Positions 8,122 to 56,273 of a stretch of DNA of 64,000 nt are shown here, piece after piece (the stretch's first letter is position 1; each line of letters starts with the position of its first letter). Source of the stretch: Pomacea canaliculata (lineage: Eukaryota; Mollusca; Gastropoda; Architaenioglossa; Ampullariidae); NCBI RefSeq assembly GCF_003073045.1, contig NC_037602.1:1364001-1428000 (forward strand), in the 5' to 3' direction. Both the position numbers and the translations under genes were made by a program. Below the pieces are notes generated by a model. The model ran no database searches. It was not told the DNA's origin and saw only the letters and a list, made by a program, of their open reading frames with translations.

Positions 8122-8236
8122 ATGAATTCAGTAGAGAGTCGCGGGTGCAAACAATTACTATGTTTGTTAAGTGGAGAAGACCTGGTGTCACTGAAAGACA
8201 CGGTAGTGGGACGCCACATCGCTGTGGACGACGACC
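8122..8236 (+). CDS. Alternative first coding exon (alpha) of C3orf38-like copy B
   Basis: Same 115-bp exon as at 1406-1520, starting at ATG in the same context and ending in phase 1 before GTATGT. It can be joined in frame to the copy B exon 2 at 9841. Whether it or the beta exon at 9290 is used cannot be told from the sequence. Confidence 0.6.
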
Positions 8237-25586: not shown

Positions 25587-28500
25587 TTAATGATTCTTTC
25601 TACGCTTCTTTGTGGCATTAATTTTTCTGTCATTCTGGACATATTCCTCCTCGTTCATCTTCGTGTCATCAGAAAGGGAAGTGCTTGGTAATTTCCTGCT
25701 TATCCCACCTCTGCCTTTGTTCCTTTTCATCTTTTGTCCAGCAGCAGGTAACTTCTGTAGGGAAGATATCTCCTTCCTGTTGTCATGTCTTCGTGACCTC
25801 CTTTTTTCAGTTTGTGACATGGTGGGTTGAAGGTCTGGTTTAGCGGCGATTTTCAAAACATCATCTTCAAAACTGCTGTCTACAGGTTTCTTCTGTCTGC
25901 GACGTTTTGTAACCTTTTCTGTATCATTTGTATCTTCAGTTTCCTTGTCTACCTCCTTTTTCAGTTTCTGATGCCAAAGACAAAAAAAAAAAAAAAAAGC
26001 AAATGAAAGAAAACAAAAGTTGTAAAGTTATTAATTCTGAAAATCAAATTTAAACCATCTTAATTCTAATTCTAATTCTGAGCATTTCCCATAATGTACC
26101 TTTGTTGCTTTCTTGCTGGAGGAAACACTTTTTCTTTTCCCTCTGCAACTTCCACCTTCTGATTAAAACAAGAAAATGGCAAATACTAAACAAGCACTGA
26201 AAACAGAGGTTAAACCAAAATTACTAAAAATTCAGAAAACTATATAGGATGGGTTGTTGAGCTAGAATGAATGCTACTACTACTTATTTGACAGGAGTAA
26301 GGGCAGGGAAACATGTTGCTTTAGTCTTTTGTGAGTCTTTGGCTAATGATGTCACTTTATTTCACTTGAGTTCTTTAGCATATGAACTTTAATCATTTAC
26401 ATTCAGCTGAGCCATTAGGTCCGTGGTTCTGTTTTGTTACAAATACCATGTCAAGACTGTTGCCATTCTGCACTACAGAAACAAACTATACCTCTTAATA
26501 TTTTCAAGAATATGAAGCATCACTTGAAAACATTTTTTTTTAGATGTATCCTTTTTTTATTTAGCTGACCTTTTGGTACAAGTGGTCCTGCATCACCATG
26601 GTACCACATTGTACGCTTATTGTGGTCTGGAATACTATTCATACCAGGCTGGCAATAGCATCTCAACCACTTCCAAAACTTGGACTCCTTGCCAAACTCT
26701 TCTTTAGTCAAATAAAGAGAGGTTCCTGAAATCAGACAACATGGTGCAGATGTTGCACAAAAATAAAGACATCTACTTAGGTTCTACTTCTAGTAATGCC
26801 AATGGCACAGACATTCCATCTGTCAAGACTGTATACTTGCAAACATATCCTACTATAAAACCTGCACATTAACATACCTAGTCCAATGGCCTCTAAAGGA
26901 ACAAGGTTGCAGAGTTGCAGAAGATCTGGGGACTCAGATTTCATCTTTCCTGTGTTTTTGGCTTTATCTTCGATTTGCGCTTTCACATCCTCAGGCACAT
27001 CAGATAAAGTGGCCAGGACTGAACGAGCTTGTTCAAAAGGTTTAACACCGGCTCTGTCAGAAAGACAACTCTTCTCAGGCTGCTTTTCACACAGCTTTTT
27101 GTTTGAGTGAGAGAGAGAGAGAGACAGAAAAAGAGGTGGAGAGCACATCTGCACATACATCATTAAAGGGAGATACAGAGGTGAATGTCTGGAAGAACAC
27201 CCTAATGCACCAGAAGAAGACACATTTATAAAGTGGGTGCTAAATTCCATGAGATAATTTAAATTGTATTGGTAACATTGGTTACAATTTATACTAATCT
27301 ACTAAACCACCTTTTGCATAAACAATACTTAATTTCTTGATGGAATCTCATCATAACAGTCACAGAAGTACAGTATTTCTTTTCCAGGGACTGCACCATT
27401 AATCAGTAACAAATGTTTTTAACCTTTGCTGCTTCTGGGCATTTTGTTCACCTCAGTCTTTGGTGATATATACCTGTAAATGATTTCAGCACGAAGGTAG
27501 TTGCCAATTCCATTGAAGTACTTCTGGTTCAATAGAGCCTCACAAAGGGGTCGATTGAAAACCGAATCTTTCAAGTTTTGCAGAACGTTAGATCTGTTAA
27601 TAATAATTAAAAGCAAACTGAGTATAGCAGTTTTCATGATCAGATATGATGGATGATCCAAAAGTGACAATTACAAACTGAATTGTTCACAAACATGATA
27701 AATCTGACTCAAATAAAAACTTGAAGACAACGATCTCATTAGTCTTTACTGAAATGTATTCTGTGACTGATAAACTCCTCTTGTGGAGTTAATCATGTAG
27801 AGATGATCACTGCTGAAGCTGTTGATAATCACCTAAACCTACAGAGGCTAATTCTTGGTCCTATATGCCCCACTGTGGGGTGAATAGAAACAAGACGAAG
27901 AAGACAGGGTTTCTTAGCTGCTGAAGTTTTGCATCAACTCATGTCTTTGTGTAAGAAGTTGAAGGTGTCCCGAATTGGCTTTCACACCAAGCAGGTGTCA
28001 TACCATTGGTCACCGGTCATTTCGCCCCACAACCATATCGCCCCACAGCTTGAGTCAAATCGTCACAGCTATATCCGTCTCACACACACACATATACAGA
28101 TCGACTTTGAATAGAAAACTGCTAGGACCAGACGAGGCTTTCTTTGTAATCTGACACTTTTCATTTCTGAGAAATCATGGCAGGCGTAAATGATCGAGGA
28201 ACCCTTCCCGCTCCCCCGGGAAAAAAACCACTTAAACTAAGGTAAACTATTTTTAATAATGAAAAATAAAAGAAAGGCACCTGAACTGTGGGTATTCAGA
28301 CATCACACACGGTCCCCTGTTGGGAGACCAGTCGGTGTCCACTTGCCATTTTCCAAATCGTCGTGGATCCACGAAGCTCAAAGCCATCGCTGGCTGCGTG
28401 TTGGTGAAGAAACTCAGGTGGGCATGCTTCGGAAGCTCTTTTACCGATGTAAATTCGAAGTGGCCAGACATGCCAAAGTTGAAGACAATATGCAGTCGCT

Positions 28501-28744
28501 TACCTTCATTCTTCACTCTACTTTTCGCGCCCTTTTTCTCGTCTTTCTCCTCGCGATGAGTTTGAAGGAAAACTTTCAGTTCTTTCCCGCGCGAAACAGC
28601 AGCCACAGTGTAGCGCGGTTCGTTCCACTTCACTTCAGCGCACTTATGGATGGGATTTTTCCTCACTTTCCCCGCAAATAATCGGCCTTTCGATATAAAG
28701 TTGATGAACTGACTCGACAGGTTCAACTCCGGACCTTCAGGCAT
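25587..28744 (-). CDS. NEIL1: Endonuclease VIII-like 1 DNA glycosylase (six exons, ~451 aa)
   Basis: Inferred exons (5' to 3' on the - strand): 28744-28281, 27593-27474, 27053-26878, 26725-26570, 26158-26100, 25967-25587. All phases agree. The protein starts MPEGPEL; Pro2 (the nucleophile after Met removal) and Glu3 are the Fpg/Nei catalytic pair. The catalytic-domain Lys is in SRGKELKVF. The H2TH region includes NRPLCEALLNQKYFNGIGNY and LRAEIIYR. The 'zincless finger' is RTMWYHGDAGPLVPK, aligning with the human RTIW..GD.GPLAPK motif and keeping its Arg. A long basic C-terminal tail (exons 5-6, e.g. KRRRQKK) probably serves nuclear targeting and partner binding. NEIL1 removes oxidised pyrimidines and ring-opened purines in nuclear base excision repair. 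The loop that carries the RNA-edited Lys in human NEIL1 is not conserved here. An in-frame 5' extension exists, but the Met before PEGPEL is the required start. Confidence 0.93.
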
Positions 28745-31700
28745 GGTTGATGAAGAACGTGAAGTTCCCGCGAACTGCCGTGACGATCTCCGTGGAGACT
28801 TTGCAAGGGACGCTATCGAACTATCGAAATTACCTCCCCTGGTCATAATAATAATAATTTTAAAAAACGTGATTTACATAACAAACGTGTATGACTAGAC
28901 TGCTGGCAGACGATTTTTTTCTGAACTACTTCAGCGAGGCTGGTGTGCTCAAAGCTTCCGGTTTAGTCACAGTCATTATTCAGGCTTGCCGAGACTAACA
29001 ACGGATCGCAAGAGGCTAAGCGTTGGTCTCGGCAGACAGACAGCAGTCCACCTATACACGTCCGTGAGTTATGTATCAATAATAATAAAGTGGGATTTAT
29101 ATAACAATAATAATAAACGTGTGATTTATATAGCATAATGACGCTCACCAAGGAGCATGATATCAATGCTTGGGACAAGTAGGAGACATGGACAGCATAG
29201 GAAGTACGGAAGGAGAAACAACAGCGCGTGCAGACAAGTAATAACAGACAAATATAAAAGACACAAGGAGGAACCAGGAAGCAAACAATAAGGACGGAGA
29301 GTGTCATAAGTCCGAAGAGGAAGACGAGCAGCTGGCGGACAGACAATTAAATACAATCGCAACTACTGACAAGTATGTTGATTGGTGCAAGGAGCCACGA
29401 GCCAAGAGGCGCCGTGCTCTGAGTACAAGACCTCACAGTCTCAGTGATGACATGGAAAGTACTTTTAACACCTGTGGATACTGCCCCCAACAACTTGACT
29501 ATTGACTATAACAGCAATATTATTGATTCCATTAAGTCACCCGAAGTGGACTGATTGGCTTTAGTCGCTGATTGCGCTGGCTAGGGAGACTGGGAGGTGG
29601 GGATGGATAAGTGGAAGAAGATGCAGGGAGGAGGTTGGTTTGATGTAGAAACGTGGAGGGAAGTTTGAATGGGTCGAGACCGGTAACTGATATCGGTGAA
29701 TGCCAGGTAATGGTCGTATTGGTCGACACAAGAAGTCAGTTGATGCTGTTTGTGACGTCGAGTCACCACATCCGGGCACTTTACATCGTCCATTCCGAGC
29801 GATGACTGATATACAACGGTTATTTACGGCGATACGTGTTTGATCTCAGCCGCTGCTTCACGAGTGGAGTGGATTGGGAAGGAATGAAAAATTTCGGGAA
29901 AATCCGTTTCTTTTGCAACTTTCGTTACGTGTAGGTTATTTTTGAAGGGAGTTCCCCTTCTTCCCTGTAAGCTGTTGTCGGAGGGATTTTAAAGGGAAGG
30001 ACGTAAACATTAGATGGGAAGGTAAGTTAAGGGATGTTTTTTCACATTTCCAAATACAGTACATGACACCTGAATCTGCTCTTGCCAACATGACGATTTC
30101 CAGGTAGCAAGATGGCTGTAGAATGCACCCCATGTTACGTGCATCTGTCTGACCTCTTGATTAAACCTGTTGCAGCTTGCTACTGACTTGTAGGTACATA
30201 AATATATTTGACTGCTAAGTGTAGACATGTACTCTGATAGGAATAAACACCGGCACACATCTACTATTGCACACGGGCATACCCAGAGCAGAGAGTATAT
30301 GTACACACGTTTGTAAACACACACAAATACAGACATACATACGTGCATAAACACTGTCAAGAACGCATCTGTTTATCCATGCAGGCAAATTGCATCCAGA
30401 GTGACTATTTTCCTTTATTAAGCTTCCTTTTCATCAATACCATTGTGGATTTCATCTAGTCTCAAATGACTATCATGCAAAACCCGCTTTTCGCCATAGT
30501 TTTGAAAGAAGGAAATTCCCCCACAGGTTATTAGTGGCTGTAAATTATCTACCCTCCTCATGTCGCCACCCCTGCCTCTTATTTGTGATGTATACATGGT
30601 GGCGAGATAACGAGACTATTTCACACACATAGAAGAACGGGAAATCGACAACTTTGGAGAACAAATAAAGTCACCCATTGCCACACCCATTAACAAAGTC
30701 ATCTCTAGACCACACCCAGTCAACAGTCATCTCTAGACCACACCCAGTTGACAGATGATTTTACTGGAAAATCTGGATGGGACACTGGCTGAACACACAC
30801 AAAGCTCAAGAGAATGAGGCGCCGGGTTCACTAGACCAGTGGTTCCCGACCTTTTGTGTCAGGTTCACTTTTACTATAGCATGCGACCCCGTGACAGACA
30901 AATGAGAAGCCATTTATTATACGAAATTTATACTAAGGATTTATATATATCCTTAACTTTTAGAAGTGTTAGATGAGTCTTAGACAGTGAGTCTTTTTTA
31001 ATGTTATCTTGCCTGGAATGTCTGCTAAGTAAGCAAGTTTTTTCCTCCAAGTTCCATCACTCCAGTAAGCCAGACGGTCATGCTTCCCTTGAACTTCCAG
31101 GAACAATTGGATTTCAGCTGGAACTCAAAGACCCGACTGACATTTTCTTTCGACAACCAGCGTACAGAAATGTAGTAAAGGAGAATTTCACGATCAGAGT
31201 CCATATCTTTACTTTAAAAAAAAAAAAAAAAAAAGCGGCTGCCTAGGGCCCCACATTTAATGCAATTCATTTTTTAACCGATTTTTAACCTACAAGTACA
31301 ACTTGTAGAGGAGGGGAGGAGTCTCAGTGGCAGGAGGGTGTGGGTGAATCATGCAGTGAGTGCCCTTTGCCTGGGGAGCAACTTCTTTCCCTTTTATCAG
31401 AAAGTCCGACCTCGTCCCAAGCTGAGCTGGTGGTCCATCCGTACAAACCTTGCACAGTCTTTCCACTGTAGGTCTTCATCTTTAAAAAGGTATTTATCTT
31501 CTCTAAGCTATCGTGACTTTTTAGAGCAGCTTCTAGTGCACTACAAATCACAAACTCCTCTCTCATGTCATCTGCATGAATGTATATTAAGAAGACAAGT
31601 AACTGAGATGATGAAATGGCATCCGTCGATTCATGAACTTAAATAGTGTCAGGGTTGTTTGGCAATTTCCACTGCCACGTCATCTGAAGCTTGGACCCCT

Positions 31701-35400: not shown

Positions 35401-37311
35401 ATTTTCCTGACAAAGCCTCCCACGATCTCCTGCAGCAGTGGTTGAACCAAGCAGCTGGACGCGGGTCGCCCCTGCCCATCAATGTCTGCATGCAGATGTT
35501 CGCAAGGTACAACCAAGGCATAGAAAGAACGGAAGGTGAAACTTTGTTTTCTATGTTTGTCAGCAGCGGTTAAAACCTGAACATGAGGACACCTAACGCC
35601 ATCTTACATGATATTTCTTCTTCCTTGCAGATACACCAGTGAGTGGTCTGTACCAGAGGTGTGGACTCTAGAGAAACCCCGGGTAGAAGTACGAACTCTG
35701 TCGGACGCTGCCATTGAAACCTCTCACCGGTATGGGCTGCAAGTTCTGACACCGGAACAGGAAGCGTTGCTGAACACGCCGAAAAGTCACGTGATGATAA
35801 TCGGAGTGCCCGGGTCTGGGGCCACTCTCGTGCTGCAGCTGAAAGTGAGGCAGTGGCTGCAGCACGGCGCATGCGTGGCTGTCTTCATCCCTCAGCGACT
35901 GACAGGCTTGTGGCAGGCGTACCAAGCAGCAGACCTGTTCCAGACCTTCAGGAGCAAGGTCTTGCTGTGGACCGGCAGGAAGCTCGATGGAGAGGGCGTC
36001 TGGTGCACGTCGCTGGAAGGTGAGGAGGTGGACGTGTCGCAGCAGCAAGGGGGAGCAATGCTGGCCGTGTTTGATGGCGCTGACTACGATATTCCTCTCG
36101 TCTCCTTCGCTGTGGAGAGAGCGACAACAATGTTTGCCTCGGTGTGGATCGCTGCTTTCAAGTCCTTGCCCGTGGACACACGTATCCATGGTTACAATGA
36201 AGTGAGACTCACCAAAGTCACCCGCATCCCCACTAGTATCCAGGCCCTTCTTAGGCACGGACTTCAGGCAATCTTGGACGAGCAACCAGCTTCAACTTTT
36301 CTTTCAGCCTGCAACGCAAACAATTTCTCAGCTTCAGAGTCGGATTCCATTTTATCTCCAGCAGACGAACCAGTCCCTCCCTCGATACTGTCGCCCAGAG
36401 TTACGCTGGATGAAGTCAGCTGCTATGTTGAGGCGAGTTCAGATAACGGCTTTGCGTGCGACGGACCCACCCCGGTGATAATCTTTCATCCGCCGCACTG
36501 TTCTCCCCACAGTCGGGTCTGTGACTGCCGCATCTGCTGCAGGGAGCTGGCGCGTGTGCTGCAAGAGCTAGGTCAGCTCGATCCGCCTTCCGATGAACAG
36601 GAAAGGACATGTGATGGCGACGATAAAGACGAGGCTGACAACGAAGACGATGACAAACATCGGAAGCATGGACGGCGGTGTCACGTGCCGCACAACGTTG
36701 TCGTCTTCACGGACACCGCGGACGACGCAGCCCGACTGGTGCGCTCGCTGCAGACACACGGGGTAGTCAAGGAGCAGCTGCTGGGTAGCATGCATCAGCT
36801 GCACGACATCCCGCGCATGGTGGGCAGGGAGGTGGCGCTGGTCGTGTACGCCGGGGAGGTGAAGGTCAGCAAGGGCAGAGTACTGCTCGGACTGGTAGCC
36901 CACCTGCGTGAGGTCATGAGCCTGTGTCAAGGACACCTTGTTCTAGTGCTAGAGGTCAGGTGGCTGCCACGGAGTGGAGGTTCTCCAGAGGACGAGGAGG
37001 GTCAAGGGTTGCAGATGAAACCTTTTGAGCTTGAGCTGCAGCTGTTGATGGAAGAATCCGAAAGACAGCATTTGGTAGAGGTTGCAGCAGTCAACACTGC
37101 ATCAGAGGGTGGAGCAGTCAACACTGCATCAGAGGGTGGAGCAGTCAACACTGCATCAGAAGGTGGAGCAGTCAACACTGCATCAGAGGGTGGAGCAGTC
37201 AACATTGTATCAGAGGGTGGAGCAGTCAACACTGCATCAGAGGTTGCAGCAGTCAACACTGCATCAGAGGGTGGAGCAGTCAACACTGTATCAGAGGATT
37301 ATCCAGATTAG
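32437..37311 (+). CDS. Large protein with degenerate NERD-like and SF1-helicase-like NTPase regions (five coding exons, ~1187 aa)
   Basis: Inferred exons: 32437-33334, 34189-34778, 35004-35210, 35319-35506, 35631-37311. All phases agree. Residues 1-300 are a Pro/Thr/Ser/Gln-rich, probably disordered region with short repeats (APPTSQT). Residues about 330-560 resemble a NERD/PD-(D/E)XK nuclease fold: HDILMFGVDIGVVCIQ followed by VTCVERG, where the usual E-x-K catalytic motif reads Q-V-T. A conserved LPNLSQQEL segment follows. Residues about 665-1050 look like a superfamily-1 helicase core: Q-motif-like LTPEQEALL, then Walker A GVPGSGAT at 686-693 with Ala for the essential Lys, and KVTRIPTSIQALL. 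The tail has eight 9-aa repeats (AVNTASEGG). The first ATG follows a good acceptor with G at -3 and +4; an upstream non-coding exon is likely. Catalysis is doubtful, and a scaffold or sensor role is possible. Domain identities are by eye only. Confidence 0.7.
37085..37300 (+). repeat. 27-bp coding minisatellite at the 3' end of the NERD/SF1-like gene
   Basis: Eight tandem 27-bp units encode AVNTASEGG with small variants (AVNIVSEGG, AVNTASEVA). They lie just before the stop codon. Both strands stay open through the array, so the - strand open frame here is a by-product of the repeat. Confidence 0.9.
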
Positions 37312-40831: not shown

Positions 40832-43800
40832 CTACGAAATCACACAGCATCCTGAAGTAGTCTTCACCTGCGCCATTCTGGGCATGGCCCCGCGATTGTA
40901 AGATTCATTGTGTCCTTCGTGCCCGTTCTTGCTTGACAATGAAGTCTCTGAGACAGTTCTCGCAACATTATTGTTATCATTTTTCCCGAAATGGTCTTGA
41001 GATTGGTTTTCACCTTTCCCCTTCACCCCCTCACGATCTGGTGGTGCTGCTGTTGCATCTTTAGGACGAGGGTCTTTGACCTGTGGGTTTACTTGCGACT
41101 GTACCACGCTGGTTGTCAAGGGGTTGATGTGCTGGTCAATCTTGGCCACGATCTCGTCAAACTTTGACCCTTGCCACTTCTCCTGGAGGCTGGGGTCACC
41201 CGTGCAGTCTATGTACAACAACTGAGTAAGTATCGGTCCCATCGGTCCCGGGGGAGGCCAAGAAGTAGTCTCCAGCAACAGAGGAACAATTGGCTTGTGA
41301 AGCGCATCAGCTAAACTCACCTGACAGGAAGAAACGAAAAGAGTATTTGTAGAGAACCAATGTGGAGAGAAAAGGGTAAACATGTACAACAATATGTTGC
41401 TATCTTTGATGTGTCAAAAAATCCTTGTACAAAACAAAATACTGTTAAAAAATATTGTTGCTTGTCTACTTTGTTTATGTACTTCGCCTTTTAACTTAAA
41501 TAAGGTCGGAAACTGTTTACACTTTGCAGATCTGCAAGTGTATTCAACGCCCCTTTTTGTTTGTTTGTTTGTTTGTTTGTTTGTTTGTTTGTTTGTTTGT
41601 TTGTTTGTTTGTTTGTTTGTTTGTCTGCCTGCCTGACGTTGGAATGCTGTTGGCACCACTGCTCACCTCCCGCCTGCAGTTGGCGGACAAGGCGTACTTG
41701 GGGGTGACGCACGACAACACCACGCGACAACCTCGCAGCCCGCGGTCAATCTTGTCGTATAACGAGTCGCCTCCCCCCATCTGCATTATGTCCAGCCAGC
41801 ACGTGTAGCCAAGGGCAGTTAATGATCGATACAGCTTCACGATCTGTGGTTGTCTACCCCACTGGTAAGAGATGAAGACGTCTGGCGAGGCCGATACCTG
41901 AGGCCGAAGGAAGAAAACAAAATGATGATGAAAGGTTTTGAGTGATCCGTGACAGCTTTTCGAACCGAGTCCATTATTTTTTATGTTTTATCCAAAAGCT
42001 AAATCATTCAAGTCAAGACAAGACGAATGATCATGATGTTAATTATACCTAAAAAGTTCTCTCCTAATTATATATTTAGGATACTTTGAGTGAAGCTTTA
42101 GATGCCTGACTTTTCTGGGAGCCATCATTTTCTAAGGATACCATCTCCTCTCATTGATATACTTTTAGCTTACTCTCTAAGGAATCGAACTGAGTAGACT
42201 AGGAGAAGGATGCTGCGCCACATGGGTATGGAACCGGTGCGCCTCTAGTTTTGGATTCCAGGGCTCTAAGCATTCTGACCAAACACCAACCTTATCGGAA
42301 GTTGCAGCGGCGACTGGCGCAGATTGAGTTTCGCCTTTTTTAGATCGGTTTTTGTCCACCGTAACCTCCTCGATCTTTGGAATCCACCAGTTTTTGTACT
42401 CTGCAATGTTAACATCAGGTAAGCATTTATATTAGCGAAAAGAAACTGCTTCTAAAGTTGAAAGAAAATGCAGTTTTGAGCAAACAAATAAGAAATGTCA
42501 AACAACGCACATAACAAAGACTACCAAACAACCCATACAACAATAAATATCCAACAAACCACATAACAAGAAATATAAAAATAACCATATAACATGATCA
42601 TGCAATGCATTCTTTTCAACTTTATTGTCTTTATTTCTCAACGATTTTATTTAACCATAAATGTATCAAATGGCTGGTAGGTTAATTTTTAAATGAGATT
42701 GTTTGAGTTTCCGTTCCCATAAATTGATACACATCTAACTAATAAAATATTTTCGTATAGAATTCTAATAAATCACAGAAAAGAAGAAAAATTCACAAAA
42801 AATTAATAAATAGCAGAATGGGTCCGTCAAGAGAACGGAAGCGCAGAACAGTTTTAATTTAAAGAGAGATTTGGTGAAACAAACTGTTCCCATACTGCAC
42901 ATATATGTTCTTTTGAGATTGTATACGAGTTGCACTAAAGAACCTGCAAGAAAGTTTCGAGGCTCACCTGGCTGCACTGCAGCTTCGTCCGGAGTGACTC
43001 CGTTCATGGACAACTGCATGAGCAGCTCCTGGAATTTATCCAAGGGCCAGTACCGCTGGTCAGTTGTCTGCTCCTTGTCTCGCTGGAAAAAGCGGACGAA
43101 CAGGTATTCGCTGAAGATGGGGCCCATGGAACCAGGTGGCGGCCATGTTGTTTTCTCCATCAGCAAAGGGATGATAGGTTTGCCCAAACTGACGGACAGG
43201 TTCACCTGAAGGTGTTAAAACCATGAATAAAATTCTGCTAACATTTTACCGGCAGTTTCAGGAAATTATCGTCAGAGACATCCAGATAGACACAAAACTA
43301 CTGTTCGAAGAGTTGCGATAAGTTTCTTGCAGGGATGTTTCTTTCACCCACTCATCTTACTGTCTTTAGAAGGATTCTGACCTCTCTGTTACAGTTGGGC
43401 GACTTGGCGTACTTCTCTGTCACACAACTGATGACCACCTTGGCGCCGCGGATCCCGGAGTCGATTTTCTCGAACAGCTTGTCGCCCCCACCCATCTGAC
43501 CCACGTCCATCCAGCAGCTGTAGCCAGCCATCTCCAGATGTTGGCGTAGCAGTCGCACCTCGCTCTGGTGGCCCCACTGGTAGCTGAGGAAGATGTCAGG
43601 GGGCTTGGTGTATTCAAACTCCTCGTCTTCCACCACAGCTTCTGGAAAAAAAACAACCACAGGTGAGTCTGGTTAAACACTGTCCGCGGAAAATGTCGAA
43701 AGCACATTTACAAGCGGTAAAAACCGTTCCTCTGAAACCTGAAACAGAATAGGTAAATCAATCCTGTCCATTATTTGTAATTCTGAAATAGATGTGATGA

Positions 43801-46800
43801 CAACAGTTGTTGCTATGTGCAGCTGTTTTCTGGATAATCTCCACACGTGGGTGTAGCTACCTGTTTATCCGAACTGATATCCTCTTTGCTTTATCTACAG
43901 TCGTCATAGTTCACAAATATCAACAGTAGTCTAGAACAGAAAAAGCACCAACAAAAACTCCCTCTCTTCTCTCTTCTGCGGATGCTGGTTGGGGGTAGGG
44001 GTGGCAAGGGAGAATGATCTCCTTTTGCTAAATTGAGATGGGGGATAATTTTCGAGGTGTTGGAAACAAATGCGGACAACATGTTGTCTCAATCTTTTTT
44101 TTTTTTTTTTACCTTGCCCTAGTACTTATGGGAAGGGTCTCAATAGAATAAATTAGGGACAGTGGGTAGCCGAATGATCAGACCAACGGCCTCCAAACCT
44201 AAAGGTGCGCACACTTCTGGTTGGATACCCATGTGACCCGGGTGTCACTGCCCTCACAAAGCTGGCAGACATAAAAGGTGAGGATTTGACAACCCTCCGA
44301 CCGTAGGGTCAGGGAACAATTTTTACCCTTTTAATTAAAAAAAATTAAACCTTGTGGATATTTACAAACTGTATTATAAATATATATATAATTATAAAAC
44401 ATCTTTTACTAACCTGCATTCTTCATGGCATTTTCTACGATCACAGCAGCATCTAATCGGCTCATGGCTTGAAGGGCCGTCAGCACCGCGAAAGTGGCCT
44501 CCCTTGTCTTGTGAGTGGCGTACCACTCGTTGAGCATCGCCATGCACGGGTCGTGCTGCTGGGCCCAGCTCCGTATGTCGTCGTTGCTGTAACCAAGGCG
44601 ACTGGACAGAAGGCGCCAGTCGTGTTCTGCTTCAGGGTTGAGGAGTTTCGCCACGTCACGTGACCAGAACGGGGCGTGGCTTAACGTCTGAAAAAGGGAA
44701 ATACTCGATTTTAACGACAAAATAGAAAGGTGTGCAGCAGTTCTCAATCACCGACAGAGTGTGACGCGTGCTACGGATGTAAGTCCGTCACATACCTTGC
44801 CATCGATCTCCTCCACTTTGATAACCGTGTCCTCAACAGTCTCCTCCACCTGATCAAGGCGCTGTCCTTGACCTGCTACGTCCTTCTTGACGATGTCAAT
44901 GTCCTGCCCTTGACGTTTCACCGTGTCCTTGACCTCAGTTACTACTTTCTCGTTGTCGTTAACGCGAATGTCAATGTCAGCGACTTCCACTTGAAGAGCT
45001 TTCAAATCGTCGACGATCTTATCCACACTAAGACAAAGAACAGAGAAAATCTTGGATTCTGTGACTAGATACATTATAATAGAATATAATAGACCTTCCA
45101 AGTTCAATTTTAAAACAATACTTACGTCTCGTTAAATTTTGTTTTCTTCAAATTTCTTATTTTCAGTATGAACTATTTTCCTTAAGGTTTTTAAAACTTT
45201 GTGATTTGAAAAATAAAGTATGTAAACTGACTCATTGCTCATGTACATAGGTAGCGGAAACTGGGGTTCTCGAGGTCAACTCAAGGGACACGAACAATGC
45301 ACAAAGCTCCTTGGCCATACCTTCTTCCGTCCAGCATGTCGAGGATCTGACCACACAAAATTCTGTAGTCTCCGTCTTTCGTTTCCTCTTTAATCTTCTC
45401 TATCCTCGAACGATGCTTTTCAATGGCGGCACGGTGTTTGTAGCCAATCAGCCTCATGGCATTGAGTGCAGCCAGGGTTGCCGTCTTGTCATCATAGGTC
45501 TCGACTTGTTTTATCATGCAATTCATTATTTCTGGGATGCCTGCCTAAGAAAAAAATCGAAATTTTTAACATTCCAAATTATTGTGTCCTGTAACAATTA
45601 ATCAGATTAAACATCCACCAACTGATCAAGATTGTAAAACCTAACGGTGTTTCAACGCAAGCTTTATGAACAGATAGTTCTTTTAATAATAAATTCTCGT
45701 TAGCTGCATTCTGCCTCTTTGGATTCATTTCACTTTCTGTTAATGAAAATGCTTAAGTTACTGATAACCATATGCAGTCCAAGACAGGCTTAGATTATTC
45801 GAAGTCAATGTTGTTTGTTTGTTTGTTTGTTTGTTTGTTTGTTTGTTTGTTTGTTTGTTTGTTTGTTTGTTTGTTTGTTTGTTTGTTTGTTTGACGTTTA
45901 AAGTTTTGAAGAATGGACACTGAGCTGATAAAACTGGAGCATAAGCTGAAGGTCCTGAATATTTCTTAGGACAAGAAAGCAAGATGCTATACTACAGTTT
46001 GTTGGTGCTAGTACTTCGTTATTCCCTTCCAGCTTCAGGGCGTAGAACTGAAGTATCCGATTTATAAAGGACAGGGACAAAGGTTGCCAGAGGCTAAGGT
46101 TCATCAGCTCGTTCAGGTGAGGCGTGATCTTGTCCGACCGTTTCTTTGTGATCTCTTCCATTGTCATCAGCAGCTGTATCTGGTTCCCTGCGTCCTCCCT
46201 GGCTTCTTTCATCAGAGCCACCATGTTATCCTTCGTAAACAGCTGTGACACAGGGGCAGAGAAATATTCCCCATTACTATTTGTATAATTTAATATTTCC
46301 CCATTACTATTCGCAAGAAAAATAAAAATTCTTATTCTTTGCTACCAAAGTTTGTCGTTCTTTGTATCGCTAATGGGGAGAGAGGTTGATCAGTCGCATT
46401 ATTTCCTTTCTCTGTCTCTGTCTAGCTCTCTCTCTCTCGCATGTACACATACACAGCCAGTTAGCCAGCCAAACAGACAGACAAAGACGGACTGATAAAT
46501 CAAGATTTAACCTCCCAACCAGCCAGTCGGCAAGGTATTGTTAATGTTGTTGTTAATGTTGCGGTAAAAGGTCAAGTCCCCGTGAAACTAAATGTATTGT
46601 TGTTGTCGTCGTCTTCGTTGTCATTGCTGTTCTCTTCCTATTTTTGTTCTTCTCTGAAGAAAAACCTTTTTAAGAATGAAAACTTACATCTGGTTGGTGT
46701 TTAGCTACTTTCTGTATAAGCTGCAGCATGTTGCTCCGTACAGAGCTGTCTCCGCTGTCCAGGTAGTTGAACAGAGCCTGAAAATGTTCGGCCAGCGGCT

Positions 46801-49800
46801 GGGGGTTGTATTCGTAACTGTACAGAACGCTAGCTGCAATGGTTCAAGAACGAGAATATTCAAAGAACTGAGACTGTCTGTGTAACTCGCAATGCGAAGA
46901 CCTCGCTGTCATTCATCACCAGAACTTTCTTCTTCACAAGATTACGAGTGAGCTCATGGGCAAGAGGTGGAAAGAGTAAGTAAGAAGCCTTAATCACAGC
47001 GAAAACACTATATATAGGTCTGAATATCTATAAAGAGTATTCGTCACATCTCATACAATAAGTTCCGATACTTTATTCTTTCGAGTTTTGTGATATTTTT
47101 TCAGCAGCTTCTGAATTACTCATTCCCTTAGCCAATTCAATGTTAAATCATTTCTAGCAGCCCACAAGTAGTAAACTATTTTTTTTAATTAATCTTGTGT
47201 AAGAACATGAGCATAATTAGGGGAGACTAGTTACTGTTGCTCTAGGACTAGTAAATTATAGGTTCTCTCCCCTAGTTCGGCCTTTAAGAAGGGAATAAAA
47301 TCACAAAGTAAAACGAAAAAAATGTAGATAAAATTCAAACAATGCAACAGTTCCTTCCCTGAGATGATTGCATTAAAAACAAAAAAAAAAAAAAAAAAAA
47401 AAACCGAAAGATATAACCCTTTAGAGAGGTTGTAAACATAACCCTGTAGAGAACCGTGCGTGTCAACTGTGCTGGTCAGCTTAGGAAATATACGGGCGCA
47501 AAAGTATTGTGCAGAAAGTTTTTCTCATCCTTTTTGTGTGCCCGTGATTTTCACGTAATGTTCACCCAGGTGTCGAGAATTTGACAGCGTGTATCCATAG
47601 AATGCGTCAGTCAGTCGGTCAGTCAGTCAAACGGATAATAAATTAGCAACCGTCACGTTGCGACGACCCTCGACCCTTTATCTCACTAAAATGCAATATT
47701 ACATCATTTCCTTGTAAGTGAGAACACAGATGGATGGAATCACAACGGAAATAAAAAAGATGCCTAACAAAGAAGGGACAAAAGCATCAGGAGAAATTAA
47801 ATCGTCGGAGACTGAAGTCGCGAAGCTTTTGTGACTGAAAGAGAGCCGTGATCAAATAAAAACTAAAAACTATAAAATAAAATCAGTTAAAAAATTTTTT
47901 AACACTTTTATTTGATATGCACTAAACATGGATTTTTTGTTTAATGATTTTATTTAATGCATGTAACGTGAAATATAAAAATGTTAGCGACTACTAAAAA
48001 TCTGATCATCAGTATTATTAAAAGAATTTTTACTTATTTTATTAGTAATTAAAAGTTAAAGTGTTCATACTGAGGAGACTGCTGTCCTCCGTGTCCAGGA
48101 ACATCTTGATCACCCTGTCGATGTAGGGTGCGAAGAGGTCGCCAGATAAGCTGATGATGGTCATCATGGCACTGGCAATGCTTCTGACATTGTCATCATA
48201 GGATGTGAGCATGTCCAGGACTCCGGGCACCAGGGGCGCCGCTCGCTGGATTTCGTTCATCGTCTTCAGCTGTAAGGTCGAGCCACACTTCAAAAACTTC
48301 AGAACAACTATTTTATCGTATAACACTATAACACACCCTGCCCACGCACTACTTATTTCCTGTGTACAATATAATTTCCTGCAAGCCCACTGAGGTCTGG
48401 ATTATAAATACCCTCCTGTCACCTCGAGTGCATGCATTAAAGACATACACAAGTAAAAAAAGCGAGGTCCACATTAAGTGATCTCTAACTTAGTCCACAT
48501 GAGATGTAAATATGAAAAGCAGGGGCATATTCGTCCCCCCCCCGGATTTTCTTTATCTCCCCTCGATTACTATGCAGCCTAGCAAGTCTATGGACTGTGG
48601 ACCTAAAAAATATCAGCCCACCTCCAGAGTCTGCTTCTGGATCTGGTTTCCAATGACAAAACCCTGCAACACCTAGCCTGTAACTCATCCATAGTGTAAC
48701 TAGTCCATATTATAGCTTACCCAGGCTATAACTTTGAACCCAGCTTGGCAGAGCAGGATATAAGTCACACTGCCGGCACTTCCAGTCTCCGGGTGGATTG
48801 GGTCCGCTTCCTGGCAAAACTTCACCAGTGCTATGAGCTCATCATACTCTTCCCACGTGAATGCTCTCCCGTCTCTGAAAACGAACAAGTCCAAGATAAA
48901 GGTGCTAGTGAAAGTGTGTATGAGTGTGTATGTCTGCTTGCATGCGTACCCTAAGCAATATAAAAGTTGTGCCGCACTCCTTCCGAAAGCTGTTATATGA
49001 TGGAAGCTAGCATAGCAACACTGCCAAACATACGCTTGATTGATGAGGAACTCCAATTTGAACATATACATGTATTATACACTTATAACTGGAAATATTA
49101 TATCAAGCAAAGTAAATCTCCTTTATGTTTAGTTCGTTTCATTCGTTCGTTCTGTGTGTTTTTTTTTTTCTTCTATTTTGTCTTTGCTGAATATAATGAC
49201 GACAACGATGATGGTTGTCCCACGATATCAGATGGCTTACAGTAACAATGAAGGAAAGCATAAAACATTAATTTCTGTATTTTCGTCTCGATGCATAAAG
49301 TATCGTACTTAACACAATCCATGGCTTTGGCAAAGAGGTCTATCGTCAAACCGTTGAGTTTCCAGTAGTCTCCTTCGCCATTCCAGCCGTAGGAATCGTC
49401 TGCTAGAGCCGCGGTTATCCGCCTCACCGTCTCCATGATTAAGGCCTTATCTTTCTGGCAAAATACATACATATCTGCATACTTAATCCACCCATCCATA
49501 TATGCATAATCCACCCATCCATCCATACGTACATACATTTATTTGCTTGACACTCAGATTTTATATGAAATCTGAGAATTAAACTTTGTAAAAACTTCTT
49601 ATTTTCGTAAAATCAATATATTAATTTTCCACTTACTTTAATGTTGAAAGATATTTTGTTGGCGATCTCTTTGCCCGCTGCAAACAGCTCAGGATTGCGA
49701 GACTCCATGATGTCGAGAGCGCGGTGAACCATGTCGCCTGTGATTTCCCCGACCAGTTTCGCAGTTCTGGGAAACAAGTCGAACTTGAAAGAATCTTCCC

Positions 49801-52684
49801 AACCCACAACCTGTTCCCACAAAAGTCTGTCGACGTCAGTGCCATTTCTTCGTCTCTCTTCGATATATATGTATTTTAAAAAACCCATCTACTTATTGCA
49901 CACCCTCGCACATACGAGTGACAAAAACACAGACCATCCGACAGAGAAACACAAAAGTGAAAACAGAAGCTGGTGATATCGTTCTGTGTTCATGTGGCTG
50001 TAATTAAATGTAAATAGCTCATGTTAATCTTTGGGTATACTAGCTTTTTGGGGTATATTTTCCTGGATGTAGATGACTAGACAAAAGATGTCTAGAACAT
50101 GTCAGAGGAGAAGTCTACATGACAGCTGGTGGTGGTGGTGGTGGTGGTAACACTATACTTACTCGAAGCCCTGGAGCAGATGTTCCACCGTGTTGTTGTG
50201 GTATTCGTAACACTCCTCTCTTTCCGTATCTGTTAACCAGTCGGGTAATGTGAAGTTAGACAGCAGCTGGAACAGCTCCTTCACGTGCGATGAATATTGC
50301 TGCAATCACAAATCTTGTTTTGTGCAGACAGCACAGTATTTTTCATGAAGAACTGCTGTGGGTTTAATGATGTAAACACGGGATATGGAGATGGGTTTCA
50401 AGTGGTTAAATTACAGAAAATACTATTAGCTGAAAGATGCTTGATGGTATTCATTATTAGAAGTATGGTGAAACATCTATACTGTTCACTGATAATTTTC
50501 TGATTATTTTTTTAATTAGGATAATTTTTTTACAATATCATTTTATTGCTCTACAACACCTGACATGTCTTGTTGACAGTGGGACTTTTAATGTAAGTAC
50601 CTTCCATTTCAGAAGATTTTCTTTCTCTCGCAAAGCATAGTACGCGGCCTCTAGGCACTGGGAGGTGTGGTGTTTAAGGAGCGACTTGACCATGGCAATC
50701 CACAGCTCCACGTGTTCTTTCGATCTACAACGACATTAACCGAGTATATCATGTCAAGTCCAAAACATGGATGACAAAGATAAGATTAAAAAAACGACTT
50801 TTTTGCAAATTTAAAGGCGTACCCACAAATTTTACAAAAATACTTTACAAACAAAACAAGATCAGAGTTATCTCGCGGACTTTTACTTCTGTAATCAGGT
50901 GACATAGCAACCGTTACATAAAGTAACCGAAACAAAATTAAGGACTTGAATTGACAGGGAGATAGGAGGTGGGGAGAGACTTCATTTTTCCATTTCTGGA
51001 TGCATAATAATAAAGGTGTTTAATTTATTAGAAACAGTACCATTAAGGTGTCAAGTGTAGTGTAAATAAGCAGGTGAGGCAACTCAGATGACTTACTTGC
51101 CCATGGCTGGACTGAGGCACTCTTCCATCACTGGCTTTGCAAACGTCAGTGTCAGGTACGTCTCATCCTTCACGTGATCCAGTAGGTGAATGAACTTCGT
51201 GATCAAACCTTCGAACAGCTTTCCTTTTCCCTTACAATTCAGCACACAACTAATTAACACGCATTCCCACACACCAGTTTGCTATTCTTTCATACCTGTA
51301 CTACAATCATATTCCCCTTATTAGTTTGTTTACCTGAGTCTCATTCACCCTTACGGTCAAGTGATTATGTAATTATATTTTTCTGTTTTGTAACGTGATT
51401 ATTATGAAGTATTTCAGTTTCACAATAACTATTTTGATCTCAGTATCTTTAAAACTTAACAATAATCATTAGCTTTATTATCTGAAGACCTTTAATTTAT
51501 CATCTAAAAATGAGTAAATAAAATTAACTGAGGGCAAAGGGAGAGGAGTAATTTTCCTTCGCTCACCCCGGACCCCAGAAACGTTTTGGAACGCCATTGT
51601 CAGCACCAGACACAGAAGTACTGATATTTTATAAATATTCCAGATTGTCTTTAACGCAGTTGTGATTATCCACTACAAGGCAATATTTCATTTAAAACTC
51701 TGTTGTGGTTGGTTACAGAAGCATCGGAGTGTAAAAGACATGCATACAGCTGCTTGCACATATACCTGTCTTACCTTGACATTCTTTGGCTCAATGCTGT
51801 TGAAGAAATCGCCGATAGCCTCGAAATGAGGTTTCGTTCCATCACACCCGACTTTCTTCACTGTCAAGTCCAGCGCCAAGTCCAGTATTTCATTGTAAAC
51901 CTCTTCCAGAGCACCAGCCGTGCTTGAAACAAGAACATGCCCCACTGTGTGTCACTGCCACTGAGCTTGAAATGTTTACATTATTTGACAGCTCTATCAG
52001 ATATCGGTTATATCAATTCATCCTAAGCATTCTTTGAGTATAAACTAAAGAGATTTTCAAACTGAAAGAGTTCCACGTAAACTGCATTGCGCAGACTGCG
52101 TGCGAGCCAATATCTATCAGTCTATCTAGCTCTTTGTCCATCCATCCGTCACTTCATGCTTGTGTGATTTGTTTGTGTTTTCTTTCTTTCTTTCTTTCTT
52201 TGTGTGTGTGTGTTCCTTTACTTGACAGCTGACAGCAAGTCTGACAAGAAACATTTGGTCTCCTCTCCGACTGTCTCAGAGTGTGGAAATGTTGGGTCTG
52301 TGATGACTTTTCCCAGGTCTGTCAGGTGGCGTCGAAGTTCTTTGGCGTCTTTGATGTTCTGAACAACAGTAAAAAAAAAAATAATAATCTCTGAAACCTT
52401 CTTTAAAAGCTGACCCTAGTTCCACAATCGGCAAAACAGATGTGCACAAACAAGTAATAGAAATTTACCCTGTGCAAAGAAAATCTTTGTTAATCAACAT
52501 GTCCATATGCATGTTTTACCAAATCAGCTCAGTCATCTTGTACTTACTCTTGTACATAGACTGACAGAGGCTGAGAAAGACATTGAGACAGACTGACGAA
52601 GCTGTGAAAGATCAGGACATTCGCCGAAATGTGAGTGAAGATGTTGCTCACCTCAAGCGTCCCTCTCTCGTAAGTGAAATCCAT
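40832..52684 (-). CDS. ARM/HEAT-like - coiled coil - DEATH - TIR - TIR protein with CaaX box (>=21 coding exons, ~1290 aa)
   Basis: Inferred exons, 5' to 3': 52684-52652, 52358-52222, 51922-51775, 51230-51097, 50724-50601, 50299-50163, 49826-49637, 49454-49309, 48874-48721, 48269-48071, 46988-46902 (tentative), 46777-46688, 46242-46015, 45544-45321, 45027-44796, 44687-44414, 43641-43382, 43205-42968, 42400-42291, 41897-41667, 41320-40832. Phases agree except across 48071/46988, where a small exon is probably missing. Residues 1-~677 are helical and ARM/HEAT-like; ~678-754 are a coiled coil; ~755-846 a DEATH domain ([20 protein letters not shown]). TIR1 (~858-1000, [20 protein letters not shown]) and TIR2 (~1050-1200, [20 protein letters not shown]) keep the Glu that aligns with the SARM1 NADase residue. 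The C-terminus is CCVIS, a farnesylation-type CaaX. The likely role is membrane-linked innate immune or cell-death signalling. Start: first ATG after a 5' UTR acceptor at 52725. Confidence 0.82.
41555..41627. repeat. (GTTT)n microsatellite
   Basis: About 18 perfect GTTT units in the intron that splits TIR2. It produces spurious open frames of QTNK repeats on the - strand and VCLF repeats on the + strand. Confidence 0.97.
42190..42290 (-). mobile_element. tRNA-derived SINE fragment next to a splice donor
   Basis: On the - strand it reads 'ggtcagaatgcttagagccc' (A-box-like) and later 'ggttccatacccatgtgg' (B-box-like). It parallels the + strand SINE at 44150-44330. Its 5' end lies directly against the donor of the inter-TIR linker exon (42291), so the intronic side of that donor is SINE sequence. 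Confidence 0.6.
42401..42967. other. Intron between TIR1 and the inter-TIR linker exon
   Basis: AT-rich sequence with several 'caaacaac..cataacaa' imperfect repeats near 42480-42590. No gene or clear element was recognised. Confidence 0.5.
44150..44330 (+). mobile_element. tRNA-derived SINE in a DEATH-TIR gene intron
   Basis: The sequence shows an A-box-like 'tagccgaatgatcagacc', a B-box-like 'ggttggatacccatgtg' about 50 bases later, and then a body with 'gggtgtcactgccctcac'. It resembles the fragment at 42190-42290 in the opposite orientation. It lies between the TIR1 and DEATH exons. Confidence 0.65.
45808..45894. repeat. (GTTT)n microsatellite, second locus
   Basis: About 21 GTTT units in the intron next to the 46015-46242 exon. 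It creates the QTNK-repeat open frame on the - strand, which is not a gene. Confidence 0.97.
46989..48070. other. Intron gap with a probable unplaced small exon
   Basis: The exon ending at 48071 leaves one extra base, while the next recognised exon (46988-46902) begins at a codon boundary. A short exon with length 2 modulo 3 probably lies here, or one boundary is mis-set. The region is AT-rich, with an A-run near 47380-47403. I could not identify the exon by eye. Confidence 0.5.
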
Positions 52685-54985
52685 CTTGCTTTATCGGATT
52701 TCTAAAGAGCCGAGTAAATGCTCACCTGGAATAAAAAGATAAAGATCAAAACTACCTTGCCTACCTTTGTAGTAAGAGTGCAGGACTCAAGCTATCGATC
52801 ATCTGCTTTGAGGTCGAGCACATCAACCACAAGGATAGGGAGCACAGATATAGTTGTGATTAATGTACGCTATATTAAAACTATATCTATACTATATTAA
52901 TAATTATAAACTTTTCTGAATTGCTCAGAAAATCAGAATTCTTCCGTGTAGTTTCATTTTCTTTCACAGTAAGATATTTTTTTAACAATATGTCGTCACA
53001 GGAACACTTCAAAATTATTCTTAGAACCTTTTCATATTAGCAACCTGCGAGCAATAGCATGCAAGACTGCCATCGTTCATTTTGTCAGAGAGGCAGCATG
53101 TCCACAGTCTACAGGTTTCTTGCTGAGAATAGAAAGACGTAGGCGAGAGGGCTAGGCTGTGATTTATTATTGAAAAATGACAACAACAAAATACCAGTTA
53201 TGTATAACTGCTCGTTTGCCTTTGTGTCTGGCAGCCTGTCTGACTTAGCCATCTTCTAGTCTCGACATCATCGTCATCTAGCGCATTATCACCATTTTAC
53301 TTGTTGATGTTTTTGTTTGTTTTGTTTTTTTCAAAGCTACCACAAAATAGCTGTAGTGGCGCAAATAATTAAATTAATAAAAATAACCTGCAATCGATTG
53401 TAGTGCTAAAATCTGTTTGCACGACCTCATATTCAATCGGTTTGACTGATCTTGTGGTCATAAGATTGACATAAATACGACAAACATCTACTGTGTTTGT
53501 ACACAAACTGTGTACCTGGCAGCATTGTGTACAATTAAGGTCCCCCGTGAACATTTCATTCAGTCAGGTAAATCGTGTCATGGGAGACAAACCTGCATCT
53601 GTACCTACCTTGCTCACTGCCCCTGTCGCCTCGCTGACCTTTGACCGGCAGACGTGCGATAGCAACACTCACCCTCGTCACATCCCACAGCTCGGCTCAC
53701 AGAGCATGTAACAGACTAGATGTAAGTAAACATGAATGGCTCGGCAATACGACCGACTTTCGCAATGCTGTAGTTGCTGGTGCAATGTCGCTGTCCGTGT
53801 CGCAGTGTATTGTTGGCTGATCGCCGCGTCGCTCGGTCGTCGGTGTATATGTTCGATCACTCCTCAGAGACATTAACTGCCAAACACATTCAGTATGTAA
53901 GCCTCTCGGTCCTTGGTGTATGTTCACAGGCAACTGCTAAACACATTCAGTATGTAGGCCGTCGCCACGATCACGCTGCTCACCGAAAGGGAATTCAAAG
54001 CCCTCGCGGCCTCCATAGTAACACTTAAACAGACGCTCGCGCAAAGGTGATTGGATCGAAAATTTGTTTTCAACCAACATCGATTCGTGCAAGTGTCTTG
54101 AGATGACCTCGCCAGTCGAATGTGACAGTTTACAGCTGAATGAATTTATCATATAACCTCATGCAACTGGGAGCATGATTATCTTCATTTCTACTGACAG
54201 CACACATGATGGATGCGTCTACTGACAACGCTTTAAACTATGAAACACATAAAACTAAACACAAATTAACTAAAAAATATTTTTGCCAGTCATAAGTATA
54301 CTTACAGACTTCAGGCTTCAGATGCTGCTGTCAAGCTTCTGTGGTCTGCTTTAAACAAGGGTAACTAATAATTTAAGCTGAAATTTGCAGCAGATTATGT
54401 TCCTTATAACTGGTGATTGTAGTAAGTAGTATTACCTTAAGGGAAAATTAAAAGCTAAGGTGTCGTTTAGACAAAGATATTCACGAACACCCGCGGGCTT
54501 AGGCATCTTCGCATTAGTATTTGTTGCTTGCAAAAGTGTTGTTTGTAATTTTTTGGGGGGGAAGGGGATGGGGGGCGCAAGGTAGAATATTATCTTCCAC
54601 TGCCCACCCTTAGTATTTTTGTTTGTTGCTGTGTACATGCACTGGTTGGAGAAATAAGGGCAAGTGAAATACTGGCTTTCAAAGTGATGGAACAAAACAA
54701 GCAAAAGTCTAAAAGATTAATTTGAAGACAGCAGTCACAAAGAAAATTAAAAAATTCAGTTCAGATGTGTAATAATTAATTCAATGTCGCAAGAGTTGCA
54801 TTTTGAAGTAGTGTAGATTACAGATCCATATGAACTGTATCATTTCTCTCATCTGAGTTTAACACAGTTTCTATGTATTGTTGACTGAAAATATTTCTGT
54901 CGATAGAACTACTGCCAAATGTTGGGAACCCTTTAATAATTATATCTGACAAACCGTTTATAATGAATTTTTACTTCTGTTGCAG
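52685..54985. other. Region between the DEATH-TIR and TMEM53-like genes (divergent promoters)
   Basis: On the - strand a 5' UTR piece of the DEATH-TIR gene runs to an acceptor at about 52725 (TTATTCCAG), so a non-coding first exon and promoter are further right. A 20-bp-class direct repeat ('aaacacattcagtatgta') occurs at about 53881 and 53940. A first exon of the + strand TMEM53-like gene should lie left of the acceptor at 54985. No other gene was recognised. Confidence 0.55.
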
Positions 54986-55032
54986 CACTAAAGGTCTTAT
55001 TGAAGGAGAGCATTGTTTTGATACAATCAGAC

Positions 55033-56273
55033 ATGAGTAAATCACTCCTAGCTAGATTCGGCTCACGGATATACTGCATAGCAAGAGTAAGCACACGCAC
55101 TCATGTTAAAAGATTCTATGCAACAGAACTGGAGAAGACCAACTCTGGAAAAAGTTTTTCCACAACAAGTGACAAAGTAAAGCAGTTAAAAGTGAAAAAG
55201 ACTCTAATATCATCACATTTGCAGCTCCATGAAATAGATTATTCAGAGAAGGTGAGAGATATAAATTATGGCAAAAGAATGGCACCTCTGGTCATAATAT
55301 TCAACTGGCTCAGTGCCAAGCCTACAGCAGTACAGAAGTACTCTGCACTGTATCACAGTATTGGTTTAGATGTCCTGAATGTGCAAGGAAACTTAGGCAG
55401 CTTTCTGTGGCCCCCCTTTGGCTACAAAATAGCACTTGAACTATATGAGTACCTAAAAGAACACCAAGCACCACATAGGCAGTACTTTATTCATGCTTTC
55501 TCGCTGGGTGCTTACATCTACACCATTGCATTGGAGCAAGCTGCAAGAAAACCCGAGGAGAGCGGACATTTTCGAAACCATGTCTTAGGACAGATTTTTG
55601 ACAGCATTGTGATTGGAACATATGATAATATGTCTCAAGGAATCGCTCAGGTAAGATTCTTTAAAACCTTTTGGTGGAGATATCTATTGAAAACATTTGA
55701 CAATGTGCATAATTAACAGATGCCAATATTGCAATTCGAGTTAAACACTTGTTTGACAGTTTGTATAATTAACAGGTTTCAGTATGACAATTCAAGTTAA
55801 ACTCTTTACAGTTTACTTGGTAGTTAAAAAAAATTGTCTACTTAGCTCATGAGCAAGTTTTGAAGTAACCCTAAACTGTAAAGTTTAAAAACATTTGTTG
55901 AGATGCACATTATCTTCATCACTTTCAGATTCTTCCCCAAAATAAAGCATTTCAACTGGCTGTTTTGAAGACGCTGGATTTATATTACAGAATTACTCAC
56001 AGGACCACTAAGGACACTTATGACCGTCTGGTAAAGTGCTTCAAAGATGAGCCTCTTTGCGTGCCAACACTTATTTTTTACTCTAGGGATGACCCGATGT
56101 GTTGTGCTGACACCATGGATACAATGTTAGCATTGTGGAGGTCACAGCAACCAGATTTTCCATATGAAAGTGTGTCTTGGCCACAATCCAGACATGTTGC
56201 TCACCTCAGAGAACATCCTGAGGAGTATTTAGCAGCATGGACCAAGCTCATGAGTCGGCTACAATTAGCTTAG
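55033..56273 (+). CDS. TMEM53-like: TMEM53/DUF829-like alpha/beta hydrolase (two coding exons, ~320 aa)
   Basis: Inferred coding exons: 55033-55650 and 55929-56273, joined in phase 0. The N-terminus MSKSLLARFGSRIYCIARVS is rich in Arg with no acidic residues, which suggests mitochondrial targeting. Then PLVIIFNWLSAKPTAVQKYS starts the DUF829 fold. The nucleophile elbow is HAFSLGAY, the acid is in YSRDDPMC and the catalytic His in SRHVAHLREHP, so a complete Ser-Asp-His triad is visible. The family (vertebrate TMEM53 about 277 aa) has no agreed substrate. No strong transmembrane helix is obvious. The ATG at 55033 is preceded in frame by an open stretch from the acceptor at 54985; an upstream non-coding exon is likely. 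Confidence 0.88.

Follow-up and report, generated by a model that had tools for sequence, protein, structure and literature searches.

A CaaX-type C-terminus shared by tandem copies of an ARM-like, DEATH and double-TIR gene in Pomacea canaliculata

A long ARM-like N-terminus, a central Death domain and two TIR domains are the characteristic build of ecTIR-DC family 6 (PMC6836662, citing Gerdol et al. 2017), the closest described counterpart of the gene analyzed here. ecTIR-DC proteins are said to occur widely in invertebrates and to be absent in vertebrates, and a role in immune signaling is only hypothesized (PMC6321704). Family 6 is called cytosolic and is reported to be elevated in the gills of other molluscs (PMC6836662, PMC5549309); it is listed among the cytosolic products elevated in mussel gills (PMC5549309), and in Loripes gills it is co-expressed with TLRs, and a part in TLR signaling has been speculated on (PMC6836662). 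In Aplysia, Death and TIR proteins with an armadillo-type fold, and one with ROCO, were filed as MyD88-like on their domain content (PMC9334734). These share Death, TIR and the armadillo-type fold with our gene; the number of their TIRs is unstated in the description (PMC9334734), and the ROCO version parallels a second Pomacea gene reported below. In oyster, six MyD88-like Death-TIR genes were reported and ARM-TIR forms a separate class, and the part of that source available to us names no gene that combines ARM, Death and two TIRs (PMC4346834). TIR clades 10–13, present in molluscs among others, are given as uncharacterized in a preprint (PMC13142454).

We analyzed a stretch of 64,000 nucleotides of the P. 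canaliculata genome (NC_037602.1, positions 1,364,001 to 1,428,000; hereafter the window), which carries on its minus strand, at 52684-40832, a gene of 20 exons. In the final splice model these exons form one open frame of 1257 amino acids, and all 19 introns are of the GT-AG type. The ATG starts at 52684 with an in-frame TAA upstream, and 40832 is the last position of the stop codon. The model was built from anchored exons and scoring of donors and acceptors, followed by comparison with the paralogues described below; this comparison led to three exon-end corrections in exons 7–9, and the first versions of these exons were dropped. The donors of introns 10 and 12 fit the consensus at just 4 of 9 positions, and no convincing counterpart of the 11-residue exon 1 was found in the four paralogues. 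The protein consists, in order, of a helical region, a coiled coil, a DEATH domain, a first TIR domain (TIR1, residues ~830–970), a linker and a second TIR domain (TIR2, ~1023–1160), followed by a tail of ~100 residues without any recognized domain and the end SGCCVIS. The coordinates are summarized in Table 1.

Table 1. Features of the window gene, in positions of the window
Feature	Position	Strand	Basis
Exon 1, start codon, 11 aa	52652..52684	-	donor fit 7/9 consensus positions, upstream in-frame stop, splice model
Exons 2-13, helical ARM/HEAT-like region, aa 12-646	45321..52358	-	splice model; same 12 exons in paralogue D
Exon 2, helical region	52358-52222	-	
Exon 3, helical region	51922-51775	-	
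Exon 4, helical region	51230-51097	-	
Exon 5, helical region	50724-50601	-	
Exon 6, helical region	50299-50163	-	
Exon 7, helical region	49766-49637	-	
Exon 8, helical region	49454-49309	-	
Exon 9, helical region	48874-48721	-	
Exon 10, helical region	48269-48071	-	
Exon 11, helical region	46833-46688	-	
Exon 12, helical region	46242-46015	-	
Exon 13, helical region	45544-45321	-	
Exon 14, coiled coil, aa 647-724	44796..45027	-	a/d heptad count; equal length in paralogue D
Exon 15, DEATH domain, aa 725-815	44414..44687	-	Pfam Death; PDB matches
Exon 16, TIR1 first part, ending at Glu E902	43382..43641	-	TIR_2; Glu aligned with SARM1 WVHKE
Exon 17, TIR1 second part	42968..43205	-	TIR_2; splice model; paralogue match
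Exon 18, inter-TIR linker	42291..42400	-	splice model; 110 nt in window gene and paralogue D
Exon 19, TIR2 first part, ending at Glu E1095	41667..41897	-	TIR_2; 49% identity with TIR1
Exon 20, TIR2 second part, tail, CCVIS and stop	40832..41320	-	splice model; CaaX in 4/4 paralogues
CVIS codons (CaaX box)	40835..40846	-	further Cys codon at 40847-40849

Four tandem paralogues, A–D, are located on the same contig (C13:4088286-4147650, i.e., 4.088–4.148 Mb), each with counterparts of exons 2–20 of the window gene in the same order. In paralogue D, ~2.7 Mb from the window gene, all 19 of these exons are open, with GT-AG sites and the same phases; 13 of the 19 exon lengths are identical, and the proteins share 56.5% identity over 1180 residues. 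Because paralogue D repeats exons 2–20 with their phases and most of their lengths, the gene model is not a product of chance. We consider it almost certain that the ARM-DEATH-TIR-TIR architecture holds. An earlier reading, made from the sequence alone, had proposed a single phased gene running from 52.7 to 40.8 kb with the order helical region, coiled coil, DEATH, TIR and TIR, and both proposals were borne out, the former by the 20-exon model and paralogue D and the latter by the splice model and Pfam. The sequence-only reading was wrong in holding that no described family has exactly this order, since genes with an ARM-like region, Death and two TIRs are described in PMC6836662. Its architecture places the window gene in ecTIR-DC family 6, which is known from invertebrates; the two were compared by description only, and they share the long ARM-like N-terminus, the central Death domain, the two TIRs and the molluscan origin. 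Apparent frame breaks were found in exons 15 and 19 of paralogue A, exons 4, 10 and 19 of B, and exons 10 and 12 of C, and these may represent decay or assembly errors.

Profile searches of the window protein recovered the DEATH and TIR domains and left the ARM label of the sequence-only reading weak, as the matches in that region were all sub-threshold. The best of these was Adaptin_N (26.8 bits, where the cut-off is 37), followed by weaker matches to INTS7_N and MMS19_N, which are HEAT-type families; none of the three was matched in paralogue D when its Pfam matches were searched. A PDB sequence search with the helical region returned nine weak sequences (best E 0.046), and SARM1 was not matched by sequence. 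Furthermore, 366 of the 618 18-mers in this region have a hydrophobic moment that peaks at helical angles, the corresponding counts being 50 of 124 for TIR1 and 24 of 81 for the tail, and this periodicity fits an ARM/HEAT-like reading of the helical region, for which the term "ARM" rests on the sub-threshold matches and on the published wording for such architectures. Hydrophobic residues occupy 18 of the 22 a/d heptad positions of the coiled coil, versus 10 of 56 positions elsewhere. The DEATH domain was matched by Pfam Death with 47.4 bits (E 2.1e-12). When the DEATH exon was searched against PDB sequences up to E 1, seven sequences were matched, of which p75NTR and NRADD were the best and Unc5h2 (E 0.99) was another; no MyD88 or IRAK chain was among the seven.

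The two TIR stretches were matched by Pfam TIR_2 with 156.8 bits (E 4.4e-46), far above the 30.1 bits of PF01582. TIR1 and TIR2 are identical at 71 of 144 aligned positions (49%), and a phase-0 intron lies directly after the conserved glutamate in both; from this likeness and the shared intron place, the pair probably goes back to a single two-exon TIR that was duplicated. In a PDB search with a profile of six TIRs, the best matches were SARM1 and bacterial TIRs, some of them named NAD hydrolases, the similarity being distant, and no sequence named MyD88 was among the 40 matched at E ≤ 0.01. In this search and in that with TIR1, the glutamate was aligned with that of the SARM1 WVHKE motif, which we take to be the catalytic glutamate E642, and it is kept in all six aligned TIRs; when TIR2 was searched alone, its alignment to SARM1 fell in another register at this motif. 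The tryptophan four residues before the glutamate is replaced by asparagine in four of the six TIRs (N898 and N1091 in the window protein) and by valine and leucine in the two more distant ones. E75 and W71 are given as ligand-binding residues in PMC7075850, where it is also stated that the presence of the glutamate does not necessarily track TIR activity. The comparison with SARM1 made in the sequence-only reading is a loose one: the TIR match is only distant and no SAM domain was detected by Pfam at E ≤ 0.1, Death being found instead. SARM1 has SAM domains (PMC7075850), and the window protein resembles it in having a helical region before a distantly similar TIR with the aligned glutamate, but differs in its DEATH domain, coiled coil, two TIRs and CaaX box and in the lack of a tryptophan before the glutamate. 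Judged from these residues, an NADase output of the window protein is possible but somewhat doubtful.

We then compared the C-termini. The last exon of the window gene does encode CVIS before the stop codon, as the sequence-only reading had held. The last five residues are CCVIS in the window protein, CCVVL in paralogue A, CCLLQ in B, and CCLIQ in both C and D, so that two cysteines, two aliphatic residues and a variable final residue end all five family genes, and all three positions after the CaaX cysteine vary. A serine, glutamine or leucine at the last position would suit farnesyl or geranylgeranyl transfer, and the cysteine neighboring the CaaX cysteine could take palmitate. The tail that precedes the last five residues is, in the window protein, not alignable with that of A, C or D (z 0.3, -0.1 and -0.6 against shuffled sequences) and barely alignable with that of B (z 1.8); the tail of A aligns weakly with those of B, C and D (z 2.5–5.1), and the latter three align well with one another. 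Among 4603 stop-terminated frames of ≥ 20 codons in two regions, 19 end in C[VILTAM][VILAM]X, five of which are the family genes; in the remaining frames such ends account for 14 of 4598 (~0.3%). As a control, 26 of the 95 TIR_2 places in the genome were read to the first stop. One had no clean frame and one was the first TIR exon of the C10 gene described below running into its intron, and none of the other 24 frames, some of which may enter introns, had a CaaX end. Two of these 24, short TIR frames of ~200 amino acids at C1:36313622-36313975 and C1:36362307-36362660, end in CVISS and CVINP, one residue off a CaaX box. Because of the apparent frame breaks, the boxes of A, B and C are perhaps not under present selection; B, C and D are also closely related, and the independent intact cases are those of the window gene, paralogue D and the C10 gene. 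The lipid-anchor signal noticed earlier in the window gene is upheld and is common to all four paralogues and the distant C10 relative, and prenylation of the window protein, as predicted from these ends, is highly likely.

A lipid anchor was looked for in PMC6836662 and PMC6321704 and none was found for ecTIR-DC family 6, whereas the window gene has a CaaX box; the literature searched, which comprised sources other than the original description by Gerdol et al. (2017), held no mention of prenylation of this family. The words CaaX and farnesyl are absent from the main text of PMC9334734, in which prenyl occurs once, in a reference title. Similarly, in literature on TIR together with CaaX or prenylation, no title among the matches listed named a prenylated animal TIR protein.

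The distant relative is located at C10:7471011-7482000, where a DEATH and single-TIR gene has ROCO-like exon pieces upstream on the same strand. Its Death domain scored 37.8 bits on two exon pieces joined by hand, and its TIR, of the same subtype as those of the window gene, scored 85.8 bits. Upstream, COR-A reached 36.1 bits (cut-off 35.3) and Roc 24.3 bits, below its cut-off of 27. The TIR and tail exons join in frame via GT-AG and end in CTVCTVL, which contains the CaaX box CTVL; a splice for the Death exon was sought and not found in this gene. The C10 gene is a distant relative that may carry a different sensor, for which ROCO is the candidate.

Selection was analyzed by region with Nei-Gojobori counts for the window gene and paralogues A–D, leaving out the frame-broken exons (A 15 and 19; B 4, 10 and 19; C 10) and the unmodelled ones (exon 7 in all four paralogues and others in single genes). 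Between the window gene and D, dN/dS was 0.06 in DEATH, 0.03 in TIR1 and 0.06 in TIR2, and over the comparisons of the window gene with B, C and D it was 0.03–0.08 in these domains where dS was unsaturated. In these comparisons synonymous sites have reached or nearly reached saturation, the lowest dS being 1.1–1.5 (DEATH and coiled coil). In the same comparisons dN was 0.09 in DEATH, 0.08–0.09 in TIR1 and 0.15–0.20 in TIR2, and several-fold higher, 0.47–0.56, in the helical region, whose values are rough because of the left-out exons and the uncorrected ends of exons 8 and 9. Against paralogue A, TIR1 is far more diverged (dN 0.42). The DEATH and TIR domains are under purifying selection. Averaged by region, the values gave no hint of positive selection, the highest dN/dS computed being 0.44 (B versus C, helical exons). 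Between paralogues C and D, dS was only 0.05 in DEATH, 0.08 in TIR1 and 0.13 in TIR2, whereas the helical region gave 0.54–0.65 and the coiled coil 1.1, a pattern resembling gene conversion in the exons for DEATH and the TIRs. Linker exon 18 was not homogenized (dS 0.78, dN 0.26), and any conversion was therefore patchy rather than a simple block event.

The sequence-only reading had proposed a membrane-tethered, oligomerizing immune signaller, which is a reasonable inference, and we regard a prenylated, membrane-tethered innate immune signaller as the best explanation of the whole and as likely. Its innate immune role, which rests on domain analogy and published expression, is itself rather likely. 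The CaaX cysteine would receive a farnesyl or geranylgeranyl group, and the adjacent cysteine perhaps palmitate, so that the C-terminus would be held at a membrane, on its cytosolic side. Sensing or autoinhibition would fall to the helical region, which changes fast. Once the protein is activated, the coiled coil and DEATH would seed an assembly in which the tandem TIRs become clustered at the membrane. These clustered TIRs would then signal, either by scaffolding other proteins with TIR or DEATH domains or by consuming NAD as an enzyme. If the protein instead stayed in the cytosol, the CaaX box being a vestige or coincidence, this would agree with the published description of the family as cytosolic (PMC6836662, PMC5549309), with the background of CaaX-like ends in other frames and with the near misses in the two unrelated TIR frames on C1. 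However, the box occurs in the window gene and in all four paralogues with changes at every position after the cysteine, adjoins a tail in which the window gene cannot otherwise be aligned with three of these paralogues, and recurs in the C10 gene. A chance origin of the box was ruled out on the same three observations, and a cytosolic protein with a meaningless box is quite improbable.

Two familiar modes of action were considered as alternatives. A MyD88-type adaptor, in which DEATH would recruit IRAK-like kinases and the TIRs would dock on Toll-like receptors, is suggested by the combination of DEATH and TIR within one protein, DEATH preceding TIR as in MyD88, by the filing of the Aplysia relatives as MyD88-like (PMC9334734), and by the co-expression with TLRs and the speculated TLR signaling in Loripes gills (PMC6836662). 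The sequence searches do not support MyD88 orthology, as MyD88 is absent from the PDB matches of both the DEATH exon (up to E 1) and the TIR profile (E ≤ 0.01) and the TIRs fit TIR_2 far better than PF01582. MyD88 is not known to possess a long helical region, a second TIR or a CaaX box, which we also counted against this explanation, and such an adaptor is unlikely. In a SARM1-like NADase, the helical region would restrain the TIRs, and their release would destroy NAD and kill the cell. The helical region ahead of the TIRs, the best PDB matches of the TIR profile and the invariant glutamate speak for it; the replaced tryptophan, the register of TIR2 alone, the missing SAM match and the helical region without a SARM1 sequence match speak against it, and the glutamate need not track activity (PMC7075850). 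We hold this possibility to be less than probable, although better placed than the adaptor. We did not file the window protein as MyD88, because its DEATH domain is nearest to p75NTR and NRADD and its TIRs to SARM1 and bacterial TIRs, nor as SARM1, because it has no SAM; it may work like either of them all the same.

The ARM-DEATH-TIR-TIR build was already known, if little studied, and what is added here is its conserved CaaX end, which directly predicts membrane tethering. If the tethering is real, the cytosolic reading of ecTIR-DC family 6 changes, and the contrast between a helical region that changes fast and the conserved DEATH and TIR domains next to it hints at the place to seek a ligand or partner. 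More tentatively, and as a proposition not quite probable, molluscs may join a prenylated DEATH-TIR output module to interchangeable sensors, either a fast-changing ARM/HEAT-like region with tandem TIRs or a candidate ROCO with one TIR; this would be a membrane-anchored class of signalosomes so far called cytosolic, in which the DEATH and TIR exons are near-identical between tandem copies while the sensor diverges. We place this reading no higher because homogenization does not extend to the inter-TIR linker exon and the joining of ROCO, DEATH and TIR is only putative.

A TIR_2 profile search of the 440-Mb genome (24 contigs) gave 95 matches, many of which are long single frames grouped together on C1, C9 and C14. 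Death was matched at 19 places; by eye, only four were near a listed TIR_2 match, and all four belong to the family studied here. Searches for TIR relatives in the sets viral_contigs and genome_contigs gave 63 and 27 pattern matches, respectively, none of which was confirmed. Elsewhere in the window, a 574-amino-acid open frame at 35587-37311 (+) gave no match to Pfam at E ≤ 0.01 and bears a short AVNTASEGG-type repeat near its end. Neighboring genes contain a formamidopyrimidine-DNA glycosylase N-terminal domain (28256-28873, -) and DUF829 (54967-56273, +). Additionally, a tandem duplication with a unit of ~6.7–6.8 kb lies at 1379-15200, where most of the compared 300-nt stretches are 96–100% identical and one is 73% identical. 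It carries 60-bp tandem repeats and, in two copies, a gene that matches DUF4518 (tested for one of them) and is presumably C3orf38-like; a more diverged copy is located at 21167-21781.
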